A stretch of 56,189 bases of DNA, from contig RFGL01000092.1 in NCBI GenBank assembly GCA_003697015.1, positions 1-56,189 of the forward strand, given 5' to 3'. The position numbers and the translations under genes are program-made. Position 1 is the first letter of the stretch. Each line of letters opens with the position of its first letter. The stretch is from Acidobacteriota bacterium (lineage in GTDB: Bacteria; Acidobacteriota; Thermoanaerobaculia; Multivoradales; J023). Below the pieces are notes generated by a model that searched no databases, was not told where the DNA came from, and saw nothing but the letters and a program-made list of their open reading frames with translations. Of the stretch, positions 22,801-56,189 are shown in pieces.

Positions 22801-25680
22801 GAGGAGCTGGAGATCGCGGCGATCCTCTTCGATACCCTGCTGGCGGCGGACGAGGAGGGCAACCCCGTGCCCCTCCTCTGCCGCCGCTGGCAGGCGGCGG
22901 AGGATGGCCGTACCTTCATCCTCAAGCTGCGTCCCGACGTCCGCTTCTCCGACGGCACGCCGCTCACCGCCGGGGTGGTCAAGGCTTCCCTCGAACGCGC
23001 CGCCGGGCGCCGTCGCGATCCCCCGGCGGCCTTCCACACCCTGGTCGGCTACGACGCCTTCGTCGGCGGCTCGGCGCCGGAGATCGAGGGCATCGAGGCC
23101 CCCGCCGACGACGAGTTGCGCTTTCGTCTGAGCGAGCCCTTGCCCCTCTTCCCGGCTCTCTTGACCGCGCCGACCACCGCCATCGTCCGCCCGCGCAGCG
23201 AAGCGCAAGGGGGTGGGTTGGCCGGCACCGGCCCCTTCCGCCTGGCGCGGCGCGAGGAACGGCGCATCCTGTTGGAACGCAACCCGGCGGATTGGCGCGA
23301 GGCCAAGCCCCACCTCGAGGGCATCGAGGTGCGAACCTTCTCCGAGGCCCTCGACATCGCCAGCGGCCTGCGCGCCGGCACCATCGACGTGGCGCGGGAC
23401 CTTCTGCCCGAGGACCTCGAATCCTTGCTGCGGGATCCGCGCTGGCGTGCCGGCCTGGTCGAGGCGACGCGCAAGAACGTCTACTTCGTACTGCTCAACA
23501 CCGCCGGTCCCAGCGCGCGCCAGCTCGCCCTGCGCCGCGCCCTGGCCGGGGTCGTGCGGGTACGCGACCTGGTGTGGCGGACCCTGGGTCGCTTCGCCCG
23601 GCCGGCGGTGAGCCTGATCCCCCCCGGCGTCCTCGGCCACGATCCCGGGCGTCGCCGGCCGGTCCTCAGCCGGCAGCAGGCGCGCGAGCTGCTCGCCGGC
23701 GCCGGCCTCGAGCCGCCGATCCGCGTCCGCGCCGCCATCCATCCCCTGCTGCAGGATCGCTACGGTGGGCTGACCGCGGCACTGATCGACGAATGGGGGG
23801 CTCTCGGGGTCGAGGTCTATTTCGAGATGACGACCAGCGAGAGCTTCCACCGGGCCTACCACGACAACGCCGACGTCGATCTCCTGATCGGTCGCTGGAC
23901 CGCCGAGTACGACGATCCCGACTGCTTCACCTACGGCCTCTTCCACTCCACCGGCGGCCGCTTGCGGCGCTACTTCGCCTCCCCCGACAGCGATCGACTG
24001 CTCGAACGGGCGCGCCAGGAACGCGAGGCGATGGCGCGGGCCTGGCTCTACCAGCGCTGGGAACGCCAGCTCGACGAGGCGGCGGTGCTCCTGCCGCTCT
24101 TCCACGACGTCAACTACCGCCTGGCCCACCCCGGGGTGCGCGGGCTGGCGCTCCACAACCGGCCGCCCTACGTCAGCTACGAGACCATCTCCAAGGTGGC
24201 GGCGGACGGCGCGGCCGCCCAGCCGCCGCCGGCCCGGGGCGAGATCCACGTTCCCCTGGCGGTCAAGCTCGCCAGCCTCGATCCGCTGGCCGAAGGGCCG
24301 GTCGAGCGCTACGAAGCCGTCGCCAACGTCTTCGAGACCCTCACCCGCATCGACGAAGGGGCGCGGGTGGTTCCGGCCCTGGCGACCGCCGTCGAGCCCC
24401 TGCCAGGCGGCCGCGGCTACCGCCTGGTGCTCGCTCCGGAGGCCCGTTTTCACGACGGCAGGCCATGCACCGCGCGCGACGTCCGCCATACCTTCGAGCG
24501 CCTGCTGCGCTCGGCCCGTCGCAGCCTCCACCACCTGCTGCTGCCGATCTGCGGGGCCCGCGCGTTGCGCGACGGCAAGGCGGCCGAGCTCGCCGGCCTG
24601 CGCATCCACTCCCAGACCGAGCTGTCGATCGAGCTCGACCGGCCGCTGGCGCTCTTCCCAGCGCTCTTGAGCCACCCTGCTTTGGCGATCGTGCCCGAGG
24701 GGGAAACCTGCTTCGACGGCGATTGGCGTGCCGGTTGCGCCGGCACCGGTCCCTTCCGGGTGGTGCGGTTTACTCCCGGGGAGCGCCTCGACCTGGAGCG
24801 CAATCCCGACTACCGGCACCGCGATCTGCCGAAGAGCGAGCGCCTGGTCTTCCACCTCGGCCTGCCTTCGGAACGCATCCGCCGCGAGCTCGCCGCCGGC
24901 CGCCTGTCCCTCGCCGCCGACCTGAACGCCGCGGACGTCGAGGCGTTGCGGCGGGAGGCCCGTTTCGCCGGCGGTTACCGCGAATCGCCCCGCCTGTCGA
25001 CCTACCTGCTGGCCTTCAATACCCGTCGCGGTCCGTTCGCCGACGCCGGCGCCCGCCGCTCCCTGGCCTGGCAGCTCGACCTCGACGAGGTGCTCGCCGG
25101 CGCCGCCGGCCAGCTGGCGAGCCGCGCTCACGGCATCATCCCGCCGGGACTTCTCGGCCACGAGCCGCCGCGCCGTCCGGTGGTGGCCGCAGCACCCTCC
25201 GGTGGCGTCGCCGGCGAGCTGCGCGTCGCGGCCCTGGTCGATCCCGCCTACGCCGGTTCGTATACCGAGCTCTGGACCACCATCTGCGGCCGCCTCGAAC
25301 AGTCCGGCATCGCCGTCGAGCCGCGCTTCGGCAGTCACCCGCAGGGCGACGTCGACCTCGCCTTCGTACGCTGGGTCGCGGCCTACCCCGATCCGGACAG
25401 CTTCGCCCAGGGGCTGTTGCACAGCGAGGAGGGGCTCTTGGGCGAGCTCTGCGGCTCCCCAGAGCTCGACCGCCTGATCGCCCGCGGCCGGGAGGAGGAA
25501 GATCCTTCCCTGCGCCATGCCCTCTACCGCGAAATGGAGGAGCTCGTCGCCCGCGAGCTGCTGCTCATCCCCCTCTTCCACGAACAGACCTACCGCTTCT
25601 GCCAGCCCACCCTGCACGGCCTGCGTTTCGCCCTTACCATCCCCGAAGTGCGTTATGAAGAACTCGAGCTGGCGTCGTGA
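19864..25680 (+). CDS. Ser/Thr protein kinase fused to a STAND-like AAA ATPase and two tandem SBP_bac_5 (OppA-type) domains
   Basis: The product is a single 1,938-residue polypeptide. The kinase spans about residues 72-340: glycine loop GQGGMGVVY (about 80), AIKM lysine, catalytic HRDVKPANV (about 193-201), DFGVAH and TYVSPEQ. An AAA_16-type ATPase begins at LVGREVELRRL; Walker A is GGEAGMGKSR (about 393-402), and a LALENLH strand stands at the Walker B position. A helical repeat region follows (about 730-930). Then come two ABC-transporter family 5 solute-binding domains, about 955-1,450 and 1,457-1,930. Each has the order RP-DVRFSDG or APEARFHDG, GTGPFR, LERNP.Y and an AYPDPD or EYDDPD tail. 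I find no signal peptide or membrane segment, so the binding domains appear cytosolic. It would be a kinase gated by an intracellular ligand. SgrR is a precedent for a cytosolic SBP_5 sensor; this fusion is unusual. Confidence 0.9.
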   Translation: MVDPERAQRAREIAAKALGREPAQQRRLIDLACAGEPELRREVEALIAERLPLAEQPTRAVAWRHRPRRVGRYEILHQIGQGGMGVVYRARDPRLDREVAIKMLPPTELDAASEERFQREARIVAAMDHPAIVPIHDLGRHQGSIYFVMPLVTGTTLRQLIGEGSLELAEILEIGAQVAEALDYSHGRGVVHRDVKPANVMVTREEGMLRARVMDFGVAHTASAERPLTRTGDIVGTLTYVSPEQIDRPEVVDGRADLYALGAVLYECLTGRPPFTGTVQVLINRILHQEPVSLRVHGVSVDRELDDLILGCLAKDPSARPARGKELAAGLRQCAARLASGDRVVPRLDAVPRVSAEPPPPLPLVGREVELRRLREQLAAALAGECQLTLIGGEAGMGKSRLLDEALRLARTHGARVLCGRFSSRDSTFPFQGLCELIQDAFRRDPKTGTGRGGDLDVDLSDLAPGLLALFPVLSEIEEIRRAGDAAAVPAPAPRAVDDPTAVFELLARTFGRLAGGRPLVLALENLHACDVSIDALQYAVHRLGPTPTWVLGTYRHTEIEHGHPLRRLLRDFSDDPRCRHLLLEPLSQPALRQLIAQQVGGQSLRDDLVARLYEATEGNPFFTRELLASLIESGGIQRDRSGSWSLLREPGALADALPVSIHQAVEQRLERLAPELQRVLAVAAVLGRSFDYQDLEALLGETDELEETIDALVRQGILEEERKTRGDRLRFVSGIVRDILYAGIPRRRRRALHRRHARRLESRYRGREERVYAQLVHHFSEGDVPERTVTYARKLARAALEACCYEDALRVSRTALEFVDEEEVVNAATVEGDLRQIRAVAQRALGHVSRALREAERAAEILARVELWEPAARAALLAAETAWQGRQVERARRWIELGCEQARRGAAGDALKRLLTLGATVANLGGDHRQAQALLAEAEALAPPSTVPADEPVAAGGTLVTAMPRAISSLDPSDLESDEELEIAAILFDTLLAADEEGNPVPLLCRRWQAAEDGRTFILKLRPDVRFSDGTPLTAGVVKASLERAAGRRRDPPAAFHTLVGYDAFVGGSAPEIEGIEAPADDELRFRLSEPLPLFPALLTAPTTAIVRPRSEAQGGGLAGTGPFRLARREERRILLERNPADWREAKPHLEGIEVRTFSEALDIASGLRAGTIDVARDLLPEDLESLLRDPRWRAGLVEATRKNVYFVLLNTAGPSARQLALRRALAGVVRVRDLVWRTLGRFARPAVSLIPPGVLGHDPGRRRPVLSRQQARELLAGAGLEPPIRVRAAIHPLLQDRYGGLTAALIDEWGALGVEVYFEMTTSESFHRAYHDNADVDLLIGRWTAEYDDPDCFTYGLFHSTGGRLRRYFASPDSDRLLERARQEREAMARAWLYQRWERQLDEAAVLLPLFHDVNYRLAHPGVRGLALHNRPPYVSYETISKVAADGAAAQPPPARGEIHVPLAVKLASLDPLAEGPVERYEAVANVFETLTRIDEGARVVPALATAVEPLPGGRGYRLVLAPEARFHDGRPCTARDVRHTFERLLRSARRSLHHLLLPICGARALRDGKAAELAGLRIHSQTELSIELDRPLALFPALLSHPALAIVPEGETCFDGDWRAGCAGTGPFRVVRFTPGERLDLERNPDYRHRDLPKSERLVFHLGLPSERIRRELAAGRLSLAADLNAADVEALRREARFAGGYRESPRLSTYLLAFNTRRGPFADAGARRSLAWQLDLDEVLAGAAGQLASRAHGIIPPGLLGHEPPRRPVVAAAPSGGVAGELRVAALVDPAYAGSYTELWTTICGRLEQSGIAVEPRFGSHPQGDVDLAFVRWVAAYPDPDSFAQGLLHSEEGLLGELCGSPELDRLIARGREEEDPSLRHALYREMEELVARELLLIPLFHEQTYRFCQPTLHGLRFALTIPEVRYEELELAS

Positions 25681-25946
25681 CAAGGTGCCGTGACAAGGTG
25701 CCACCCTTTTTTTCAAAGTTGATCCTTCGTGGGGGCGAGAACAACGCGATCGGCAGCTTCGAGGTCCGCGAAGCGGTCCCGAGCAGTCTCGCTTGACCTC
25801 GGGCGGGCCCCTTGGAACGTGGCTGCCGGTTGACGAGGCCGATACCGGGCGCACGACGACGGTTTCGGCTCCGATAGGGGGAACCGGCGGCATGGTTCGG
25901 TTCGGTCGTCGGTTGGCGGATCGCTGGCCACGGAGGCCGGCTCGCC
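25681..25946. repeat. Gene-free gap with one GGTGCCACC-core repeat (T-tailed) at 25696-25713
   Basis: Directly after the kinase-fusion stop comes a short partial copy (AAGGTGCCG, 25682-25690), then the full AGGTGCCACCCTTTTTTT (25696-25713). The T-run lies on the strand that reads out of the kinase gene. The core GGTGCCACC is almost palindromic. The remaining ~230 bp show no gene; this is the 3' side of the RAYT gene. Confidence 0.7.
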
Positions 25947-26882
25947 TCAAGGGGCGCGGATCGGCCCCGCACGTACGAATGGCTGACCGGGTGGGAAGCA
26001 GCCTTCAGGGAAGCGTACGTCGCGCTCGCCGGCGCGAAGTCGTGCAGATGCTTCGCGAAAGGCGGCGACGAAATCCGAGTAGGCTCGGCGTAAGAGTCTC
26101 AAGCTCTCGCCGCGGGCGTGAAAGTCCGGGGCCGGTGACCGGCTCAAGACCTCAGGCCGCGCATGGGGATCCTGAGCAGCGATGGCCCTCGCACCAAGAA
26201 CGGCTGTGCCGCGCTGGCGACGGTCGTCTGCGGCTTCCTGCTCAATGGTCGAAACCAGGTCAGCGACGCGTTGCCGATAGTTCTTGACCGGCAGGTGACG
26301 CCAGCAGGGCAGGGGGTCGAAAACCAGCATTTCCGGGGTGGCGTGGGCGTATGGATCGTCGTCCCGGCCACGCTGGCGGGCCTGGCATTCGGCGGTGCGA
26401 TCGAACCAGAAGCCGGTAAGGGGCCGCCCCTCGACCAGCGCCGCGGCACAATGCACGCCCGGCCAGTCGTAGGGACTTCGGACAAGGCCTTCTTTGGTGC
26501 CTTGAGACAGCACATACTTCAACCGGCGCACCTGGGTAGCTTCGTCTTGACTGACGACCACGCCGTCGTAGCGCCGGGCCCAGATCTTGTCCGACCAGCC
26601 GTGCAGCCGTCGCACTTCTTTGGCCAGCTTCGCGTTGAAGTACGCCATGAAGCGCGCCAGGCGCTCAGCGTCCTCCACCCAGGCCAGCAGGTGGTAGTGG
26701 TTCGACAGCACCGCGACCCCGCATACCGCGATCGGGTACTTGCGCTGCGCTCGCGCCAGAGCGCCGATCACGGTTTCGTTGAGCTCGCGGCTCGGCCGCA
26801 GCAGAAGGCGGCCCTGGATGGTCCGGGAGGTGATCTCCACCAGGGCGCCGCCAGGGGGGATGTAGCGTAGTTTCCTCGCCAT
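25947..26882 (-). CDS. REP-associated tyrosine transposase (RAYT), IS200/Y1-like
   Basis: This 311-residue member of the Y1 HUH-endonuclease family has the metal-binding HUH as NHYHLLAW (H62, H64). The candidate nucleophile is Tyr123 in RRLKYVLSQGTKEGLV, followed by the SPYDWP motif typical of RAYTs. A C-terminal extension (about residues 150-311) is basic and not otherwise recognised. No IS200/IS605 ends or companion gene are seen. Instead GGTGCCACC-core repeats lie on both sides (25696-25713 and 27038-27214). RAYTs are normally single-copy and vertically kept, and they mobilise or maintain REP sequences. ATG 26882 follows a TATAGG box by 5 nt. Confidence 0.88.
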   Translation of the reverse strand: MARKLRYIPPGGALVEITSRTIQGRLLLRPSRELNETVIGALARAQRKYPIAVCGVAVLSNHYHLLAWVEDAERLARFMAYFNAKLAKEVRRLHGWSDKIWARRYDGVVVSQDEATQVRRLKYVLSQGTKEGLVRSPYDWPGVHCAAALVEGRPLTGFWFDRTAECQARQRGRDDDPYAHATPEMLVFDPLPCWRHLPVKNYRQRVADLVSTIEQEAADDRRQRGTAVLGARAIAAQDPHARPEVLSRSPAPDFHARGESLRLLRRAYSDFVAAFREASARLRAGERDVRFPEGCFPPGQPFVRAGPIRAP

Positions 26883-27017
26883 AACACCCTATAGAAGACG
26901 ACCTCGCCCTCAACTTCTTCGGCGCCGCCGCGATTTCTGGTGAAGTGGCGAAGAGACGGGGCATTGGGGAAGGAGGGAAGCTGGCGAGTATTATGGGCCC
27001 GCGACATAAATTACGGA

Positions 27018-27214
27018 GCCACCTCTAGGTGGCCGATAAAAAGGGTGGCACTTGCCATGGGTCACCTTCCATGGGCACCTCCCGTGGGGGGTAAGAAGGG
27101 TGGGACCTGTGGGGGCCCGTAGGGCAGGCCATCCGTAGGGGATAAAAAGGGTGGCACCTGTGGGTGGCACCTGTGGGTGGGGATAAAAAGGGTGGCACCT
27201 GTGGGCGGCACCTG
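27018..27214. repeat. Repeat cluster upstream of the RAYT gene (four T-tailed GGTGCCACC-core copies, plus partial units)
   Basis: On the plus strand AAAAAGGGTGGCACCTG occurs at 27144-27160 and 27185-27201. Diverged copies are at 27038-27053 and 27093-27109. Shorter GGTGGCACCTG or GGCGGCACCTG units follow two of the copies. At the left end is a perfect inverted repeat GCCACCT-CT-AGGTGGC (27018-27033). The cluster fills most of the 380-bp gap between the divergent RAYT (26882) and membrane sensor (27263) genes. All copies have their T-run on the minus strand. Confidence 0.75.
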
Positions 27215-27246
27215 GGGGCAGCGCCCTTGGGCAGGGCGATCCAGGG

Positions 27247-27252
27247 TATGCT
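27247..27252 (+). promoter_or_regulatory. -10 box (TATGCT) for the membrane sensor gene
   Basis: TATGCT is followed by GGGGAGAGCG and ATG 27263. The weak TTGGGC at 27227-27232 is only 14 nt upstream, so no -35 is claimed. Confidence 0.4.
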
Positions 27253-27262
27253 GGGGAGAGCG

Positions 27263-30200
27263 ATGATCAAGGCCCCGGATGACGGCGACCCTGCGGGCAG
27301 CGCGCTGGCCGGCAGGAAGGAGGTTTCGCGACGGCACGGTCGCAGCCTCGCCCCCCTGGCCTGGGTGATGCTGCTGCTGGTGGTGCCGAGCCTGATCTAC
27401 GTCTTTTACGTCCTCGATCAGATCCGGGCGCTGACGGAGGGCAATCTGCGTCTCCTCGGGCGGGCCGCAACCCGCCTTGAAGCGGTTCTCGACAACGCCG
27501 CGACGACGGTGAAGAACCGTGCTCTGGACCTGCGCTTCGCCTGTGACTTCGTCGACCGCCAGCCTTACCTCACCCTGGTCGAACCCGGTCGCTGTGAGAC
27601 GTTGCAGCGCTACGGGCCGGCAGAGGTTGAGATCGAGACCCGCTACGACGCCGGCCGGGGCAGGCTCCTGCTCACCGCTGTGCCGCAGGGGGACGCCGGG
27701 TGGGAAGGCTTTTCGTTCGCCGTCGAGCTCGAACGGATCCTGCACGAGGTGCCGCTGGCGGATCACTTCGACCTCCTGCTCCTCGCCGACCGCCGGGGCG
27801 ACGTGGTGGTGCAGGTGGCGGGGGACGGCGCCGCGGGCCACGGTCTGCGCATCACCCGCATCGACAAGCTCCCAATGGTCCGCGGTGGGGAGGAGCCGCT
27901 GGCGTTTGCCGCCGTTCAACGGGCGAGCCTGGAGCGCTCGGTAGAGCTCTTCGACCGCGATCACAGGCTCTTTTGCCAGCCCTTGGCGGTGCGTGGCGGC
28001 GCGGCCGGCGCTTGGGCGTTGTGCGGCCTGGTGCGCTCCGGCGACACCTTCCAGCAGGCCCTGGTGGTCTCTCCCATCCTCACCCTGATCTTGATCCTAT
28101 TGCTGATCTTCGGCCTCCTGACCTGGCCGTTCATCAAGCTCTTCTCCCTCGACCGCCGCGAGCGCTTCCGCTTTGCCGACGGCTTCCTCCTCCTCTTCTG
28201 CACCTTCGTGTTGCTTCTGCTCCTCACTCTACTGACCTCCGAGTGGGATAGCGGCAAGCGTCTGCACGAGGCCACCGAGACGAGCCTCGAGGTGCTGGCT
28301 GCCGAGCTCGAAGAGGATCTGCTCGCTGAGCTCAACCGGCTCTACGACCAGGTGGTGGCCTTCGATCGGCATCTGTGCGCGCAGCGGATGGAGCTCGACG
28401 TCTGCGGCCTCAAGGAGGACGCCAACCTGCTCGATCCGAAGAGGCCGCCGGCTGCGTTTCGCCTGCCACGACCGGCGATCGAGGACTTCAGCTCGGTATT
28501 CTGGATGCGACCTTGCGACGGCTTGCAGATCGCCAAGGCGACGGTGCGCAGCAAGAACACGCCGGCGGTCCGGCTGGGGCACCGCGAGTACTTTCGCACC
28601 CTCGCCGAGGGCCGGTCTTGGAGGGTCGGCTCGCCCCCGGACGAGGAGCGCCGGTTCTTCGTCCAGGCGTTCCGCTCGGTGACCACCGGCGAGCGCGGTG
28701 CGGCCTTGTCCATCCGTTCCTGCCTGAGCGATCCCGGCGGCGTCGCCGAGCTGACCAAAGGAGAGGACTGCCGCCTGCCCCCCTGTCGATCGGCCGGCGT
28801 GGTGGTTGCCGCGATCAGCGCCCCCTTGGCTTCGGTCGACCGCGTCCTGACGGGACCGGACTTCGGCTTCGCCATCGTCGAGCCGGGAGGCGGGGTGCTC
28901 TTCCACAGCGATCGGCGGCGGGCGCTGGACGAGAATCTGCTGCTGGAGGTCGACGATTCCAAGCGCTTGAACGCAGCGCTGTCGGCGCGGATCCCGCGCT
29001 CCTTGCGCATGCGGTATCACGGGCGCCCGCATCTTCTCCACGCGGCGCCGCTGCGCGATCTGCCGTGGTCGGTGGTCACCTTCGTCGACCGCGAGCTGCT
29101 GCGGACGACGAGCATCGAGGCCCTCGCCCTGAGCCTGGTGCTGGCCGCCGCGTATCTGGTACCGCTGCTGCTCGGATCGATCGCCTTCGCCCTGATCGCC
29201 GGCCGCGAAGCGAGCTGGCTGTGGCCGGATCCCGCCAAAGAGCGGCTCTATCGCCATCTGAGTTGGATCTTCGCTCAGCTGCTCCTGGCCTTTACCCTGG
29301 CGCTCTACGCCCTGCCGGCGGAGAGCGCGCTGTTGGCGGCGTTCACCATGCCTTTGATGGCGGCGCTCATCGCCTGGTTGCGGCTCATGGCGTGGAAGCT
29401 TCGCCACCGCCGCAATGCGACTCTCTGGCGCGCGTTGGACCTCTTTTCGGTACCGTTGCTCCTGCTGCTCCTGATTCTCGGCCTGGTCGCCCTCAAGCTG
29501 GCGAATCTGTCGTTGTCCTGGCGCGATCCGTGGTTGGTCGGTCCCTTCGTCGGCATGCTGATCCTCACCGCGCTCTACCTGCTGATCCACGGCTGGCGCG
29601 ACTTCAGCCGGCCGTGGCGCTACCGGGTCAACTGGCTCGCCTGGCATTGCACGGCGATCGTCCTTTTTTGGCTGCTGCTGGCGGTGTGGCCGGCGGTCGG
29701 CTTCTTCAAGATCGCCTTCGTCAGCCAGCAGCGGGTGTTGGTCAAGCACGAGAACCTGCACCGCGCCGAGGGCGTCCGCCAGCTGGCGTGTGCGCTCGAA
29801 GACGAGCTGCGCGACGTCGCCATGCCGGATCGCGACGCGAGTCTGAACCGGCGTCTCGCGGCAGCGCGCCACCGCCATCGCCCCCACATGCTGGCGGCGC
29901 TTCACCCGGGCGGCGATCCGCCGGAGGTTTCCGACGTCGGCAGCTGGTTCGATCGAGGGCTGCGCGATCTCCTGGCGCGCTATCAGCCGCTCTACAACCG
30001 CACCACCGAGAGCCAGCGCTACCTGCTGGGGACCCGAGCAGCCGACGGAGCCTGGGAATGGCGTGGAGGCTTGGAGGGGGGCGGCGACGGCGCCATGCGT
30101 TTTCACGCTCGAGCCGGCCCCTGCCAGCGCCGGGACCTCTCCCTGGTCTCCGTTCTGCCGGTCCCCGGCCACCGGCTGACCTGGCGACTGGCAGCGGGCG

Positions 30201-32310: not shown

Positions 32311-32321
32311 GAGGGGGCCCG

Positions 32322-32517
32322 AAAAAAAGGGTGGCACCTGCTCGGTCGCTGAAAAAAGGGTGGCACCTGTCCACCGCGCGGTCCGCGGTCGGCGGCGGAC
32401 CAGCAGCGGCTGGCCGAAAAAAGGGTGGCACCTGGATCGGTCGCCGGCCAGTCGCCGAAAAAAGGGTGGCACCTGGATCGGTCGCCGGCCAGTCGCCGAA
32501 AAAAAGGGTGGCACCTG
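32322..32517. repeat. Repeat cluster of five T-tailed GGTGCCACC-core copies, including a 42-bp tandem duplication
   Basis: On the plus strand AAAAGGGTGGCACCTG-type copies lie at 32324-32340, 32353-32369, 32417-32433, 32459-32475 and 32501-32517. The last three are spaced exactly 42 bp apart because a 42-bp unit (repeat plus GATCGGTCGCCGGCCAGTCG) is duplicated. The cluster sits between convergent genes that end at 32310 and 32533. The T-run is on the strand that reads out of the leftward gene. It is the same family as the repeats around the RAYT gene. Confidence 0.8.
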
Positions 32518-32532
32518 GATCAGGTACCTGGA

Positions 32533-34080
32533 TCAGTCGCTGGCCAGCAGGGTGGTGCCGAGCTCGGCGCGCGGTCCGGGGTCGGCGGACCAGCAGCGGC
32601 AGGTCTCGCTTCGATCACAGGGCTGGGCCGGCGGCAGCGCGAAATGCGCGGCTCTGAGATCGTCGAGCGTGAGCCCACCGGGATCGCTTTTGACGACCAA
32701 GGGTGCTTCGCTGATCAGCTCGCTGCTTCGGGTGTCGAGCCAGACGCGCGTCAGGCTCCGCCCGGCGGCGGCAAGGTCGAGGCAGAAGGCGGCCGGCTCG
32801 CCTTCTTCATCCAGCTGCCACACAAGGTGCAGGCTGGCTTTGAGCTTGGTGTCGTCGACGCCGAGCTGCTCGGCGAGCTCCTGTTTGGCCCGCTTGAGAG
32901 CGCTTCGCACGAAGCTCTTGCTGGCACCATCGAGGATGCCGAGATCGATTCCCGGCTGGCAGAGCGGCAGCTCGGCCCAGTCGACGACCAGCTCGCTGCG
33001 CCAGCGCAGCAGCCGATTGCGCATGTCGATCTCGAAGAGGGTGGGCAGCGCCGGGCAGACGAGCGGCAGGCCGGTGGGGATTTTCAATCCTTTGGGGATC
33101 TCGATCGAAAGGTAGTCGCCGCCGGCGTAGGTGAGACTCACCGCTCCGACCGCGTCGCCGAATACCTTGGCCTGCCCGTCGATGCTGAGACCGGCGCCCT
33201 CATTGCTCAGACGGATGGCCGTTTTCGCTTCAAGCTGGAAGACGTCCAATCGGCTCTGATCGGGGAAGAGGGGTTTCAGCACCTCGGCCCTCGGCACGCT
33301 GAAGTGAAAATCGAATGGGAAAGCCGGCGTCAATCGATCGCTCGTAGCCGACGAGAACGCGTCTTCGTCCAGATCGACGAGCATCTCGCAATCCGGGTCT
33401 TCGGGCGCCACTTCGTCACCGCAGGCGGAAAAGGGCGACGCCACGACGAGCTTGGGTTGGTCGATCCGTAGCCCCAGGGCATCGACTTCCGCCTTTCCGC
33501 GCAGTCGCACCCAGCCCGTACATTCTTCGTCGTCCGTGCGGCAGGCGGGATCGATGGTGATGGCGCCGCTGCTTTGACCGGAAAGCGCCTGCCCCGTCGC
33601 CGCCAGAACGATGCGTTCGTCCGCTTCCTTGCCCGCGGCCCGCCACACGATTCTCCGGCCACCCTTTCCGGCACGGACCTCGAGGCCGATGCAGTCGCCC
33701 GCCATCTCGTTGTTGTCGAGGTCGCAATCGTCCAGCTCGACGTTGCCCTCAGTGCCGCGCAGGCGATAAGAGAAGCGATCGTTAGTCTTCGCCAAGGAGG
33801 TCGCCGAGATCGTCCACCCCCTATCTTCCACGCGCTCGATCTTCCGCAATGCTTGACGGGCGAGATCGATCTTGTGTTTCAGCGAGTCTGATCGTTCGAA
33901 GGCGAGCCGCGCCTCCTCCTCCAGATAGGGTTGCAGTTGGCGGATCGGTGCCCGGCGGGAGTAGTCGTAGGCTACGGCCGCGGCGAGCACCAGGAGCACG
34001 CCTCCGACCGCCGCCAGAAGCATCCGGCGGGTACGACTCCGCTCATCGGCCGGAACTGACGGATGATTCTTGCTGCGCAT
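32533..34080 (-). CDS. Membrane-anchored protein of unknown function
   Basis: This 515-residue protein starts at ATG 34080, preceded by CTGGAGC; an in-frame ATG at 34131 has no better site. One membrane helix near the N-terminus (about residues 20-40, LLAAVGGVLLVLAAAVAYDY) follows basic residues, so the rest is probably outside the cytoplasm. The exported part begins with a helical stretch and continues as a strand-rich, acidic region. It contains several cysteines, including a terminal CDRSETCRCW. I recognise no domain. Its 3' end adjoins the repeat cluster at 32322-32517. It is divergent from an ECF sigma factor gene and could belong to its regulon, but nothing shows that. Confidence 0.7.
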   Translation of the reverse strand: MRSKNHPSVPADERSRTRRMLLAAVGGVLLVLAAAVAYDYSRRAPIRQLQPYLEEEARLAFERSDSLKHKIDLARQALRKIERVEDRGWTISATSLAKTNDRFSYRLRGTEGNVELDDCDLDNNEMAGDCIGLEVRAGKGGRRIVWRAAGKEADERIVLAATGQALSGQSSGAITIDPACRTDDEECTGWVRLRGKAEVDALGLRIDQPKLVVASPFSACGDEVAPEDPDCEMLVDLDEDAFSSATSDRLTPAFPFDFHFSVPRAEVLKPLFPDQSRLDVFQLEAKTAIRLSNEGAGLSIDGQAKVFGDAVGAVSLTYAGGDYLSIEIPKGLKIPTGLPLVCPALPTLFEIDMRNRLLRWRSELVVDWAELPLCQPGIDLGILDGASKSFVRSALKRAKQELAEQLGVDDTKLKASLHLVWQLDEEGEPAAFCLDLAAAGRSLTRVWLDTRSSELISEAPLVVKSDPGGLTLDDLRAAHFALPPAQPCDRSETCRCWSADPGPRAELGTTLLASD

Positions 34081-52448: not shown

Positions 52449-53486
52449 TCAGCGCCGCTCCAGGTCGACGACGATGCCCGGGTGATCGGAGATGGCCACC
52501 GGCTCGCCGATCAGCGCTTCGAGCTCGCCGGGACGCAGGGTCCAGGCGGCGTTCGCCACCTGCCAGGGCGAATCGCTCGCCGGGACGAAGACGTGGTCGA
52601 TGCCGCCGGGCAGGGCGTCCCGCAAGCCGTGGGCCTCGAAGGCCCGCGCTGCGGCGCTGGCGCTGGGTGCGTTGAGGTCCCCGGCGACCACCAGGGTCGC
52701 GGCCGGCGGCAGCCGTCGAGCCAGAAACTCCGCCTGCGCCGCGGCGGTTTGCAGATCCCCCGCCACCAGGTGGGTGGAGACCACGGTCAGGGTTTCGCCG
52801 GGTGCCACCTCCAGGGTGACGAAGAGCGCCACCCGGATCTCCCACCACGGCCGCCGCGGCGCCAGCACCACCCGTTGCGCCCGGCGGATCGGCAGCCGGC
52901 TGAGCACCGCGCTGCCCTCCTCGAAGCCGATCAGCCGGCGCGAGCCGTTGGCGCTGGCGAAGACCGCATCGAGGCCGAGCTCCTGACCGAGGCGGGCGGC
53001 GAGTTGGCCGTGGCCTGCCACCGACCAGGCTTCCTGCAATACCACCACCGTCGGCTCGAGGGCGGCGAGGGCCGCCGCCAGCTGGGCGTAGCGGGTCTCC
53101 TGATCGCGGAAGGCGGGGAAGCCGTGCAGAACGTTGACGTTGACCAGCCGCAGGGTGGAGGGTGGCGTCGCCGGCGTCGCTGCCCGCCGCTCGACGTGAA
53201 GCGGCCCGGAGGGCGGCAAGAAGACGGTGGTGACGAAGAGCAGGGCCGAGGCCACCAGGCCGCCGCCCAGCCAGCGCTCGCCGGCGACGCGGGACGGCGT
53301 CGCGGCCAGCCACAGGCCGGCCAGGACGCTGACCAGCAGCAGCGAGGCGAGGCCCCAGGGTGGCAGGTACGCCAGGCGGCCGGAGATCCACAGGACTGCG
53401 GCGGCGAGAAGACCGAAGACCAGCAGCCCGCGTCGAGCCCTCTGCCCTTGCGACGGCAGGGGCTGGAGCGAGCTGGGGGCGGGCAC
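52449..53486 (-). CDS. Membrane-anchored endonuclease/exonuclease/phosphatase (EEP) family protein
   Basis: This 345-residue protein starts at GTG 53486 behind GAGGAG, 11 bp after the M14 peptidase stop; the open frame further upstream is ignored. Three N-terminal hydrophobic segments (within residues 20-90) are followed by an EEP domain with all metal and catalytic motifs: VNVNVLHG, VVVLQEAW, VVSTHLVAGD, VVAGDLNAPS, GGIDHVFV and SDHPGIVVDL. Membrane-anchored members of this superfamily cleave phosphodiesters of nucleic acids, sphingolipids or inositol phosphates, so the substrate is open. It is in the leftward cluster with cell-wall genes. Confidence 0.88.
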   Translation of the reverse strand: MPAPSSLQPLPSQGQRARRGLLVFGLLAAAVLWISGRLAYLPPWGLASLLLVSVLAGLWLAATPSRVAGERWLGGGLVASALLFVTTVFLPPSGPLHVERRAATPATPPSTLRLVNVNVLHGFPAFRDQETRYAQLAAALAALEPTVVVLQEAWSVAGHGQLAARLGQELGLDAVFASANGSRRLIGFEEGSAVLSRLPIRRAQRVVLAPRRPWWEIRVALFVTLEVAPGETLTVVSTHLVAGDLQTAAAQAEFLARRLPPAATLVVAGDLNAPSASAAARAFEAHGLRDALPGGIDHVFVPASDSPWQVANAAWTLRPGELEALIGEPVAISDHPGIVVDLERR

Positions 53487-55644: not shown

Positions 55645-56189
55645 GCTTCCCCTTCCCCTCCCTCAAAGGTCCCACCCTCTTCACAACTCCTTGCGGCTCA
55701 ATGAATTAGTGCTGCCCGTAAGGTGCCCCCCGGCCCGTGAGGTGCCCCTGAGGTTGCCCCTGACGTGGTTGCCCCGCCCCTGGCCCTGCCCCTGAGGTGC
55801 TGCCCCTGAGGTGCCACCCTCTTCGCTGCTGCCCCCTGAGGTGCCACCCTCTTCGCAAGTTGTTGCCCCCTTAGGTGCCCCTTAGGTGCGGTGCCCCTTA
55901 GGTGCTGCCCCCCTTAGGTGCCACCCTCTTCGCAAGTTGTTTCGAATGAGGTAGTTACTCGTGCTGGTTTGGATTGATTGTGACGTCAGACTTGACCGTA
56001 TGCCTCACGCCGTCCCTGCTGTGAGAGCCCAAGAGGTCCCCAAGGGTCGCGAGGTCTCCACTCCGAAGGTCCCACCCTCTTTGCGGCCACTCCCCATAAG
56101 GTCCCACCCTCTTCGCAACTCCTTACGCATCAACGAATTACACCGAGATCCACCGATCTCCTCGCGGCCGGATCCCCTCCCATCCTCAC
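55645..56189. repeat. Gene-free repeat array (GGTGCCACCCTCTTCG and GGTCCCACCCTCTTC variants)
   Basis: Six full copies lie in one orientation at 55668-55682, 55810-55825, 55840-55855, 55917-55932, 56068-56082 and 56100-56115. Many shorter AGGTGCCCC fragments lie between them. The first and last copies share a longer 3' flank (AACTCCTT.CG..TCAA.GAATTA). The core GGTGCCACCCT is that of the repeats around the RAYT gene, but the T-tail is replaced by CTCTTCG. About 100 bases (55935-56040) are lower in G+C and contain no repeat. No gene is visible. Confidence 0.75.

Follow-up and report, generated by a model that had tools for sequence, protein, structure and literature searches.

Several described families of Y1 HUH transposases come close to the locus studied here. 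RAYT or TnpAREP proteins, which form class 2 of the TnpAY1 enzymes, are marked by the signature Y---NP, and their elements are said to show no sign of moving as whole units (Quentin et al. 2018, PMC6006769). For the E. coli enzyme the hairpin and the GTAG motif of the repeat both matter, and TnpAREP cleaves at CT, or at CA in Marinomonas (PMC8266576). TIRYTs (TIRtrons) are RAYT-like tyrosine transposases flanked by inverted repeats unlike GTAG REPs; some of these repeats occur as dispersed families of moderate abundance, some share GGGGWSAS, and a sharply delimited group is acidobacterial (Di Nocera et al. 2013, PMC3733652). The TIRYT proteins have been published in four groups. TnpAY1 class 3, from Acidobacteria, Planctomycetes and Proteobacteria, has Q in place of N in its Y motif and atypical high-copy flanking repeats (~600 in Solibacter), and stands between IS and REPtron, while subclass 2.1 holds most published TIRYTs, with no REP found near its genes (PMC6006769). 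The spread of RAYT repeats is still to be explained, since most RAYT genes are stable and their elements are not seen moving as units. A clade with many copies per genome, paired variants of enzyme and repeat, recent moves and broken repeats with a fixed edge is a natural data set, whose sequences allow cut site, specificity and mobility to be predicted.

The window, that is, the whole stretch of 56,189 nt that was analysed, is contig 235 of a 5.34-Mb draft genome in 500 contigs (G000). On its minus strand (26882-25947) it encodes a RAYT/TnpAREP-like Y1 HUH transposase of 311 aa, identified by ORF call, family profiles, alignment and fold. This RAYT-like transposase is framed by a cognate repeat family that is dispersed in the genome. 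The pair is probably best understood as a RAYT/TnpAREP-like Y1 transposase with a cognate repeat family of the terminal-inverted-repeat type, for which TIRYT/TIRtron, likened here by its published description rather than by protein alignment, is a closer published category than REP (PMC3733652). Two features go beyond what the first-pass annotation had noted, namely shortened arrays with a fixed break, a probable cleavage footprint, and the movement of whole units, seen in one related genome. We found no published description of the clade, of AGGTGC-type repeats or of such shortened arrays in a literature search that left subscription journals mostly outside.

The transposase and its leader

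The 311-aa protein matches Pfam Y1_Tnp with an E-value of 0.00022, just under the cut-off, and NCBIfam REP_Tyr_transpos with an E-value of 2.2e-12 and 47.1 bits (cut-off 80). Its catalytic core comprises approximately residues 1-142. In an alignment of 88 clade proteins, from which two loci (L075 and L096) with no uninterrupted 250-residue frame were excluded, the HUH motif and a single catalytic tyrosine are present (H62 in 86/88, H64 in 86/88 and Y123 in 87/88). The residue at Y+4 is Q in 57 proteins, H in 21, N in 6 and A in 4, and that at Y+5 is G in 81/88 and P in 1/88, giving a Y motif of the form Y-x3-[QHN]-G; the signature Y---NP is absent from the clade in this alignment. The AlphaFold2 model of the protein (pLDDT 89.8) has a Y1 fold, for which the best structural match is 4er8, E. 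coli TnpAREP with a REP hairpin (Z 14.4, 157 residues, rmsd 2.8), with the IS608 and ISDra2 transposase structures ranking below it (Z 8.6-10.0). Foldseek with the same model gave an E-value of 7.9e-6, and the family profile of the clade matches the ISDra2 transposase and TnpAREP chains.

The first-pass annotation, made from the sequence of the window, had described a single HUH/Y1 protein with RAYT motifs and a long C-terminal extension, a description that the TnpAREP-like fold and an extension covering residues 143-311 bear out. Some 170 residues long, the extension is conserved throughout the clade. Modelled alone (pLDDT 82, pTM 0.48), it matched no solved fold (best Foldseek E-value 1.8; best VIA Z 2.4), a missing match that says nothing about the novelty of the fold. 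Long proteins with a C-terminal extension are also found in TnpAY1 subclass 2.1, or RAYT group 1, but the members described there carry Y---NP and an HTH-like C-terminus, whereas here NP is absent and the C-terminal model has no fold match (PMC6006769).

Only one clade member was found in the window genome, as against about 105 repeats. Another weak protein match in that genome, on contig C254 (L027), is an unrelated 150-aa IS200-type transposase, after which come repeated hairpin-like units (GTCCCGCAGGGACGCACCAAGGTAGCCCGGGG...). PADLOC returned no defence gene match. Across 148 genomes of the class, a clade protein (E-value up to 1e-10) occurs in 49, of which 46 belong to the same order, and many relatives hold from 5 to at least 15 protein copies per genome, the count of 15 being a lower bound because no more than 15 candidates were scored in each genome. 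The named relatives in the genome collection are Thermoanaerobaculia, other Acidobacteriota, a few Myxococcota and one Deltaproteobacteria record. Among 396 genomes sampled from the phylum, only two outside the order (G347 and G431) matched most of the 304-position family profile, the other out-of-order matches covering only about its first 140-170 positions.

The leader of the gene also has a conserved feature. Directly before the ATG, about 40 to 10 nt upstream, 80 leaders (L028-L117) share an ungapped block, GnnAGAT-N15-CGTCT(T), which in the window lies at 26896-26922 on the minus strand, with CGTCT ahead of the ATG. The alignment was anchored on CGTC-like words, so that their conservation is inflated, while GnnAGAT was not an anchor. 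From its conservation in relatives the block is probably promoter-like; we take it to resemble an ECF-sigma-type promoter, a reading that would make the mRNA nearly leaderless. A hairpin in the leader was considered and, on inspection by eye, judged unlikely, as the sequences vary without compensation and a block of fixed spacing is kept. An RNA in the downstream 200-250 nt was rejected, the region not being conserved between subgroups, and Rfam gave no match at E 0.1 in window positions 25500-27400.

The repeat family and its pairing with the protein

The transposase gene sits between inverted copies of AGGTGCCACCC, followed by a T-rich stretch, and inverted repeat pairs I1-I3 stand on its two sides. 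When matches to AGGTGCCACCCT with at most two mismatches are counted, one near-copy lies 3' of the gene (25696-25707) and six lie 5' of it. The 3'-side repeat, AGGTGCCACCCTTTTT (25696-25711), follows a shortened tandem copy, so that the plus-strand feature at 25676-25711 (locus w4) reads [CGTGACA-AGGTGC] twice and then CACCC. The 5'-side copies are all on the minus strand. Those at 27189-27200 and 27148-27159 are exact, each followed by TTTT; a short copy, AGGTGCCACCCA, at 27161-27172 (one mismatch) is in tandem with the next copy (locus w1); and the variants are AGGTGCCGCCCA at 27202-27213 (two mismatches), AGGTCCCACCCT at 27097-27108 and AAGTGCCACCCT at 27042-27053, closest to the gene (one mismatch each). 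The first-pass annotation had counted four copies on the 5' side; its single 3' copy and a perfect inverted repeat, GCCACCT-CT-AGGTGGC, on the 5' side (27018-27033, with no assigned role) stood.

Elsewhere in the window the repeat core recurs in two further clusters, as had been reported, at 32328-32516 and 55667-56110 (matches with at most two mismatches). The former belongs to an array of five direct copies of the gene-flanking repeat on the minus strand (32319-32536), between two convergent genes. The latter belongs to a plus-strand array of a second subfamily (55660-56120; AGGTGCCACCCTCTTCGC... and AGGTCCCACCC) that includes shortened [flank+AGGTGC] copies. The word GGTGCCACC was observed 13 times in the window against 0.58 expected from shuffles, and a lone occurrence at 52801 is without the CCCT edge. 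The second, longer repeat subfamily (AGGTGCCACCCTCTTCGC-AAGTCGTTTnGAATnAGnnAGTTACG) is seen in the window at 55660-56120 and at L119, L123, L126, L129, L130, L132, L133, L135 and L136. No matching transposase for it was found in the window genome, and it is perhaps the relic of a lost one. A hairpin in this subfamily was rejected, 24 aligned sequences (of 32) giving 61.1% pairing against 65.1% in shuffles.

Throughout the 5.3-Mb draft genome, GGTGCCACCCT occurs 105 times (48+57) against once for the reversed pattern, and AGGTGCCACCCTTTTT occurs 25 times against 0 for the reversed control, mostly as direct-orientation arrays. Arrays lie at or near the ends of contigs C21, C136, C216, C247 and C348, where the assembly seems to break, so that the true repeat count is probably above 105. 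As to intergenic bias, a crude codon-composition caller, which over-calls at contig ends, placed 35 of 95 repeats within coding frames, which made up 79% of the sequence supplied; as array copies are also non-independent, little weight is put on this figure.

The repeats are also distributed with the protein. Of the 49 genomes with a protein match, 17 contain the exact 13-mer GGTGCCACCCTTT, as do 4 of the 99 without a match. With enrichment defined as at least 10 copies and at least twice the reversed control, 28 of the 45 genomes that have a strong clade member are enriched in AGGTGCCASCC (1403 copies over the 45 against 532 for the control), as is 1 of the 99 that have none (510 over the 99 against 672); the four genomes with a weak match only have 40 against 44. 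None of 26 non-carriers of the same order is enriched, in a comparison that treats related genomes as independent and in which 21 of these 26 are of one genus. That genus (g23 in family f7, G063-G083) is missing both clade and repeat enrichment in 21/21 genomes, and its family neighbours carry from 9 to at least 15 copies. Clear enrichment is not universal among carriers, as 17 of the 45 strong-member genomes are without it and the control can exceed the count (28 against 56 in G026). Hence neither of the outcomes that the first-pass annotation had named as refuting its proposal, a repeat equally frequent without the clade or one not enriched beyond the window, was observed.

Ninety clade loci were examined, 83 of which had enough flank for a comparison of arms, that is, the best ungapped match of the 450 nt ahead of the gene with the reverse-complemented 450 nt behind it. 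Arms scored at least 13 in 28/83 loci; permuted pairings gave a mean of 3.1 such loci and a maximum of 11, and 28 was reached in 0/10000. In the remaining loci the ends are decayed, shortened or different. The matched arm words mostly follow one plan, with an outer hexamer AGGTGC (or AGGTGA, AGGTGT, AGGTTC or AAGTGC), then CA, then a variable body. The body in the window is CACCCTTTTT, and after AGGTGC relatives carry CAGCCGATTTG, CACCCGATTTCC, CACACGTTTCG and others. The T-rich edge emphasized earlier is a feature of the window's subfamily alone. A full repeat was recovered by pattern in 56/90 loci, 55 of them with a protein, and in the 54 loci left after removal of redundancy the distance between repeat bodies follows the distance between proteins (Mantel r 0.394, 0/5000 permutations); with repeats shuffled within genomes only, the value was reached in 1/5000. 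Genome counts, the contrast between carriers and non-carriers, matching arms and the Mantel correlation together assign the repeat to the protein as its cognate family, as the annotation had supposed, and repeat type does vary with the transposase.

The same results bear on whether the repeats are instead host elements, such as terminators or binding sites, at which the transposase merely lands. The copies just behind stop codons (25680, 32310) and the array between convergent genes at 32319-32536 would suit such a role. However, arms match within a unit, bodies differ between paralogues of one genome, same-order genomes without the gene show no enrichment, and the repeats have no stem of the intrinsic-terminator kind, and we hold this explanation to be very improbable. 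As regards the TIRYT/TIRtron category, the likeness lies in a gene framed by non-GTAG terminal inverted repeats. The differences are that here the outer AGGTGC is conserved while the inner body varies with the protein, and that the 54 repeats compared start with AGGTGC or a near variant and do not show GGGGWSAS, a motif of some published repeats and hence no defining mark; the available text makes no mention of shortened flank-plus-hexamer arrays with a fixed break, or of whole-unit mobility (PMC3733652).

The repeats had been called nearly palindromic and assigned to a REP class. The first term holds for the 9-nt GGTGCCACC core only, since 45-nt stretches taken from AGGTGC inward fold no better than their dinucleotide shuffles. 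No hairpin was detected in 39 upstream repeats (mean z 0.16), 38 downstream repeats (0.08) or 46 repeats of the window genome (0.02), while in a like test six GTAG repeats beside E. coli rayT, the positive control, gave z from -1.4 to -2.5. Nor was there a common GTAG edge among the 54 repeats. With no detectable hairpin and no GTAG foot, the repeats are not REPs in the strict sense but of the terminal-inverted-repeat type. It is accordingly quite unlikely that the locus is a canonical REPtron as in E. coli, with a domesticated, immobile transposase recognising GTAG-footed hairpin REPs. The closest fold is indeed that of E. coli TnpAREP, inverted repeats surround the gene, and the window genome has one gene copy for about 105 repeats, all of which such a system would share. 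Against it stand the unfolded repeats, the Y motif (N at Y+4 in 6/88 and P next in 1/88), the many relatives with multiple gene copies and the five near-identical moved units described below.

TnpAY1 class 3, again compared by description, is another close candidate, being found in Acidobacteria and having atypical high-copy repeats (PMC6006769). Its Y motif is written Y- - - -Q, and here Q stands at Y+4 in 57/88; secondary structures with a CnGA foot are described for it (PMC6006769), and no secondary structure was detected here. CCGA does occur within many repeat bodies. IS200/IS605 elements (IS608, ISDra2) share the Y1 HUH core. Here, however, the protein is twice as long, the subterminal hairpins typical of both IS200/IS605 unit ends were not detected by the fold test, and the repeats are dispersed well beyond the gene copies.

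Shortened copies and a fixed break

Full repeats adjoin shortened tandem copies, which consist of the local flank plus AGGTGC with nothing after. At L049, for example, CAGGCCAGGTGC occurs several times and is followed by CAGGCCAGGTGCCAGCCGATTTG, and at L056 CTGACCTGAGGTGC stands ahead of CTGACCTGAGGTGCCACCC; in the window, shortened copies lie at 25676-25701 and 55700-55930. The position of the break was counted in copies agreeing with a full repeat in six bases of flank and the AG after them, with the analysis of G000 covering 27 loci and four window stretches rather than every contig with a match. The match stops right after AGGTGC in 17 of 56 copies in G000 and 16 of 61 in relatives, and one base on, after a further C, in 6/56 and 11/61; other break positions are spread, the long ones being near-full copies. 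Of the 41 arrays that include a shortened copy, 31 have a break at AGGTGC|CA or one base further. A second count, of maximal direct repeats, gave 18/42 at AGGTGC|CA and 8/42 one base later. Shortened tandem copies are also seen by eye on one side of L194, a Myxococcota relative whose end word is different.

Since the edge recurs in arrays whose flanks have nothing in common, and with CACCC as well as CAGCC bodies, neither a target sequence nor the palindromic core explains this edge. The fixed break is probably, as far as sequence can tell, the footprint of strand cleavage, marking the position of the enzyme's cut. The other edge is less regular: the base preceding the duplicated unit is C in 17/38, not convincing as a rule, so that no clear rule emerges for the second cut, and replication slippage may play a part. 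Arrays and break might even be due entirely to such slippage at some DNA motif, with no enzyme cut and with the gene flanked by repeats for other reasons. Tandem duplication is common in bacteria, the arrays are local and tandem, and their junctions frequently have one or a few bases in common, but at L047 the units join without a shared base, the right edge stays at AGGTGC|C regardless of flank and body type with no need of a palindromic core, and the repeats track the protein, with enrichment missing where the protein is missing. On balance slippage alone seems unlikely.

Whole-unit mobility and a proposed cleavage mechanism

Mobility was seen in one subgroup of relatives. Genome G056 holds five units whose genes are 94-97% identical and whose flanks are all different, which indicates that whole units move. 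What the units share starts with CCAATATTCGG, some 108 nt ahead of the gene; its far limit is GGNTGCC, some 223 nt past the gene, in those pairs where both contigs reach this point and the alignment continues. Judged from these sequences, the movement of whole units has taken place in at least one genome, within the G056 subgroup. No target duplication is visible by eye at the G056 units, a likeness to IS200/IS605. Two units of 91% identity stand in tandem in G057. An empty site for the window copy was not found: in G023 neither a repeat nor a transposase precedes the downstream gene's orthologue, but there is no shared upstream gene. For the neighbouring array, the search for an empty site gave only one partial DNA match, in G021.

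The edges of the G056 units lie before CA on the left and after the complement of the outer word on the right. In IS608, the cuts in one strand lie on the 3' side of a flank word at the left end and of an end word at the right. The asymmetry of the G056 edges is what would be expected if the strand were cut in this way. By analogy only, the left edge of these units would equal the AGGTGC|CA break, the units having a different end, CCAATATTCGG. Cutting on the 3' side of a conserved flank word would be a further likeness to IS608. The proposed AGGTGC|CA site may also be compared with the cleavage of TnpAREP at CT or CA, in a system where, unlike here, hairpin and GTAG motif are present and matter (PMC8266576).

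These observations suggest the following course of events. The enzyme would bind single-stranded repeat DNA by reading its sequence, and in the repeat AGGTGCCACCCTTTTTTTCG it is predicted to cut one strand after AGGTGC with formation of a covalent protein-DNA link. Attack by the catalytic tyrosine at this point would leave a 3'-OH on the AGGTGC side and the tyrosine link on the body side, which is the general chemistry of HUH Y1 enzymes. If the free 3'-OH were joined to the other end of the unit, the unit or the repeat would move; if AGGTGC were joined to a nearby cut, the repeat body would be lost or the flank duplicated, building [flank+AGGTGC]n arrays. At a guess, the C-terminal extension might read the body of the repeat where other systems rely on a hairpin. 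Taken together, we tentatively propose, at somewhat less than even chances, a hairpin-independent branch of RAYT/Y1 enzymes that would read linear single-stranded AGGTGC plus a co-varying body, probably aided by the C-terminal extension, with the [flank+AGGTGC]n arrays as in-vivo footprints. If the footprint reading is true, genome sequence alone would reveal where dozens of paralogous enzymes cut and what they recognise, and if the enzymes work without a hairpin, Y1 transposases would have a second means of choosing their sites.

A relative with the canonical YTLTNP motif was observed at L253 in another Acidobacteriota lineage (G431). Its inverted arms match each other and end in ACCCAGGTTGAT, with more ACCC-type words outside, and arrays may be a habit of canonical RAYTs as well.
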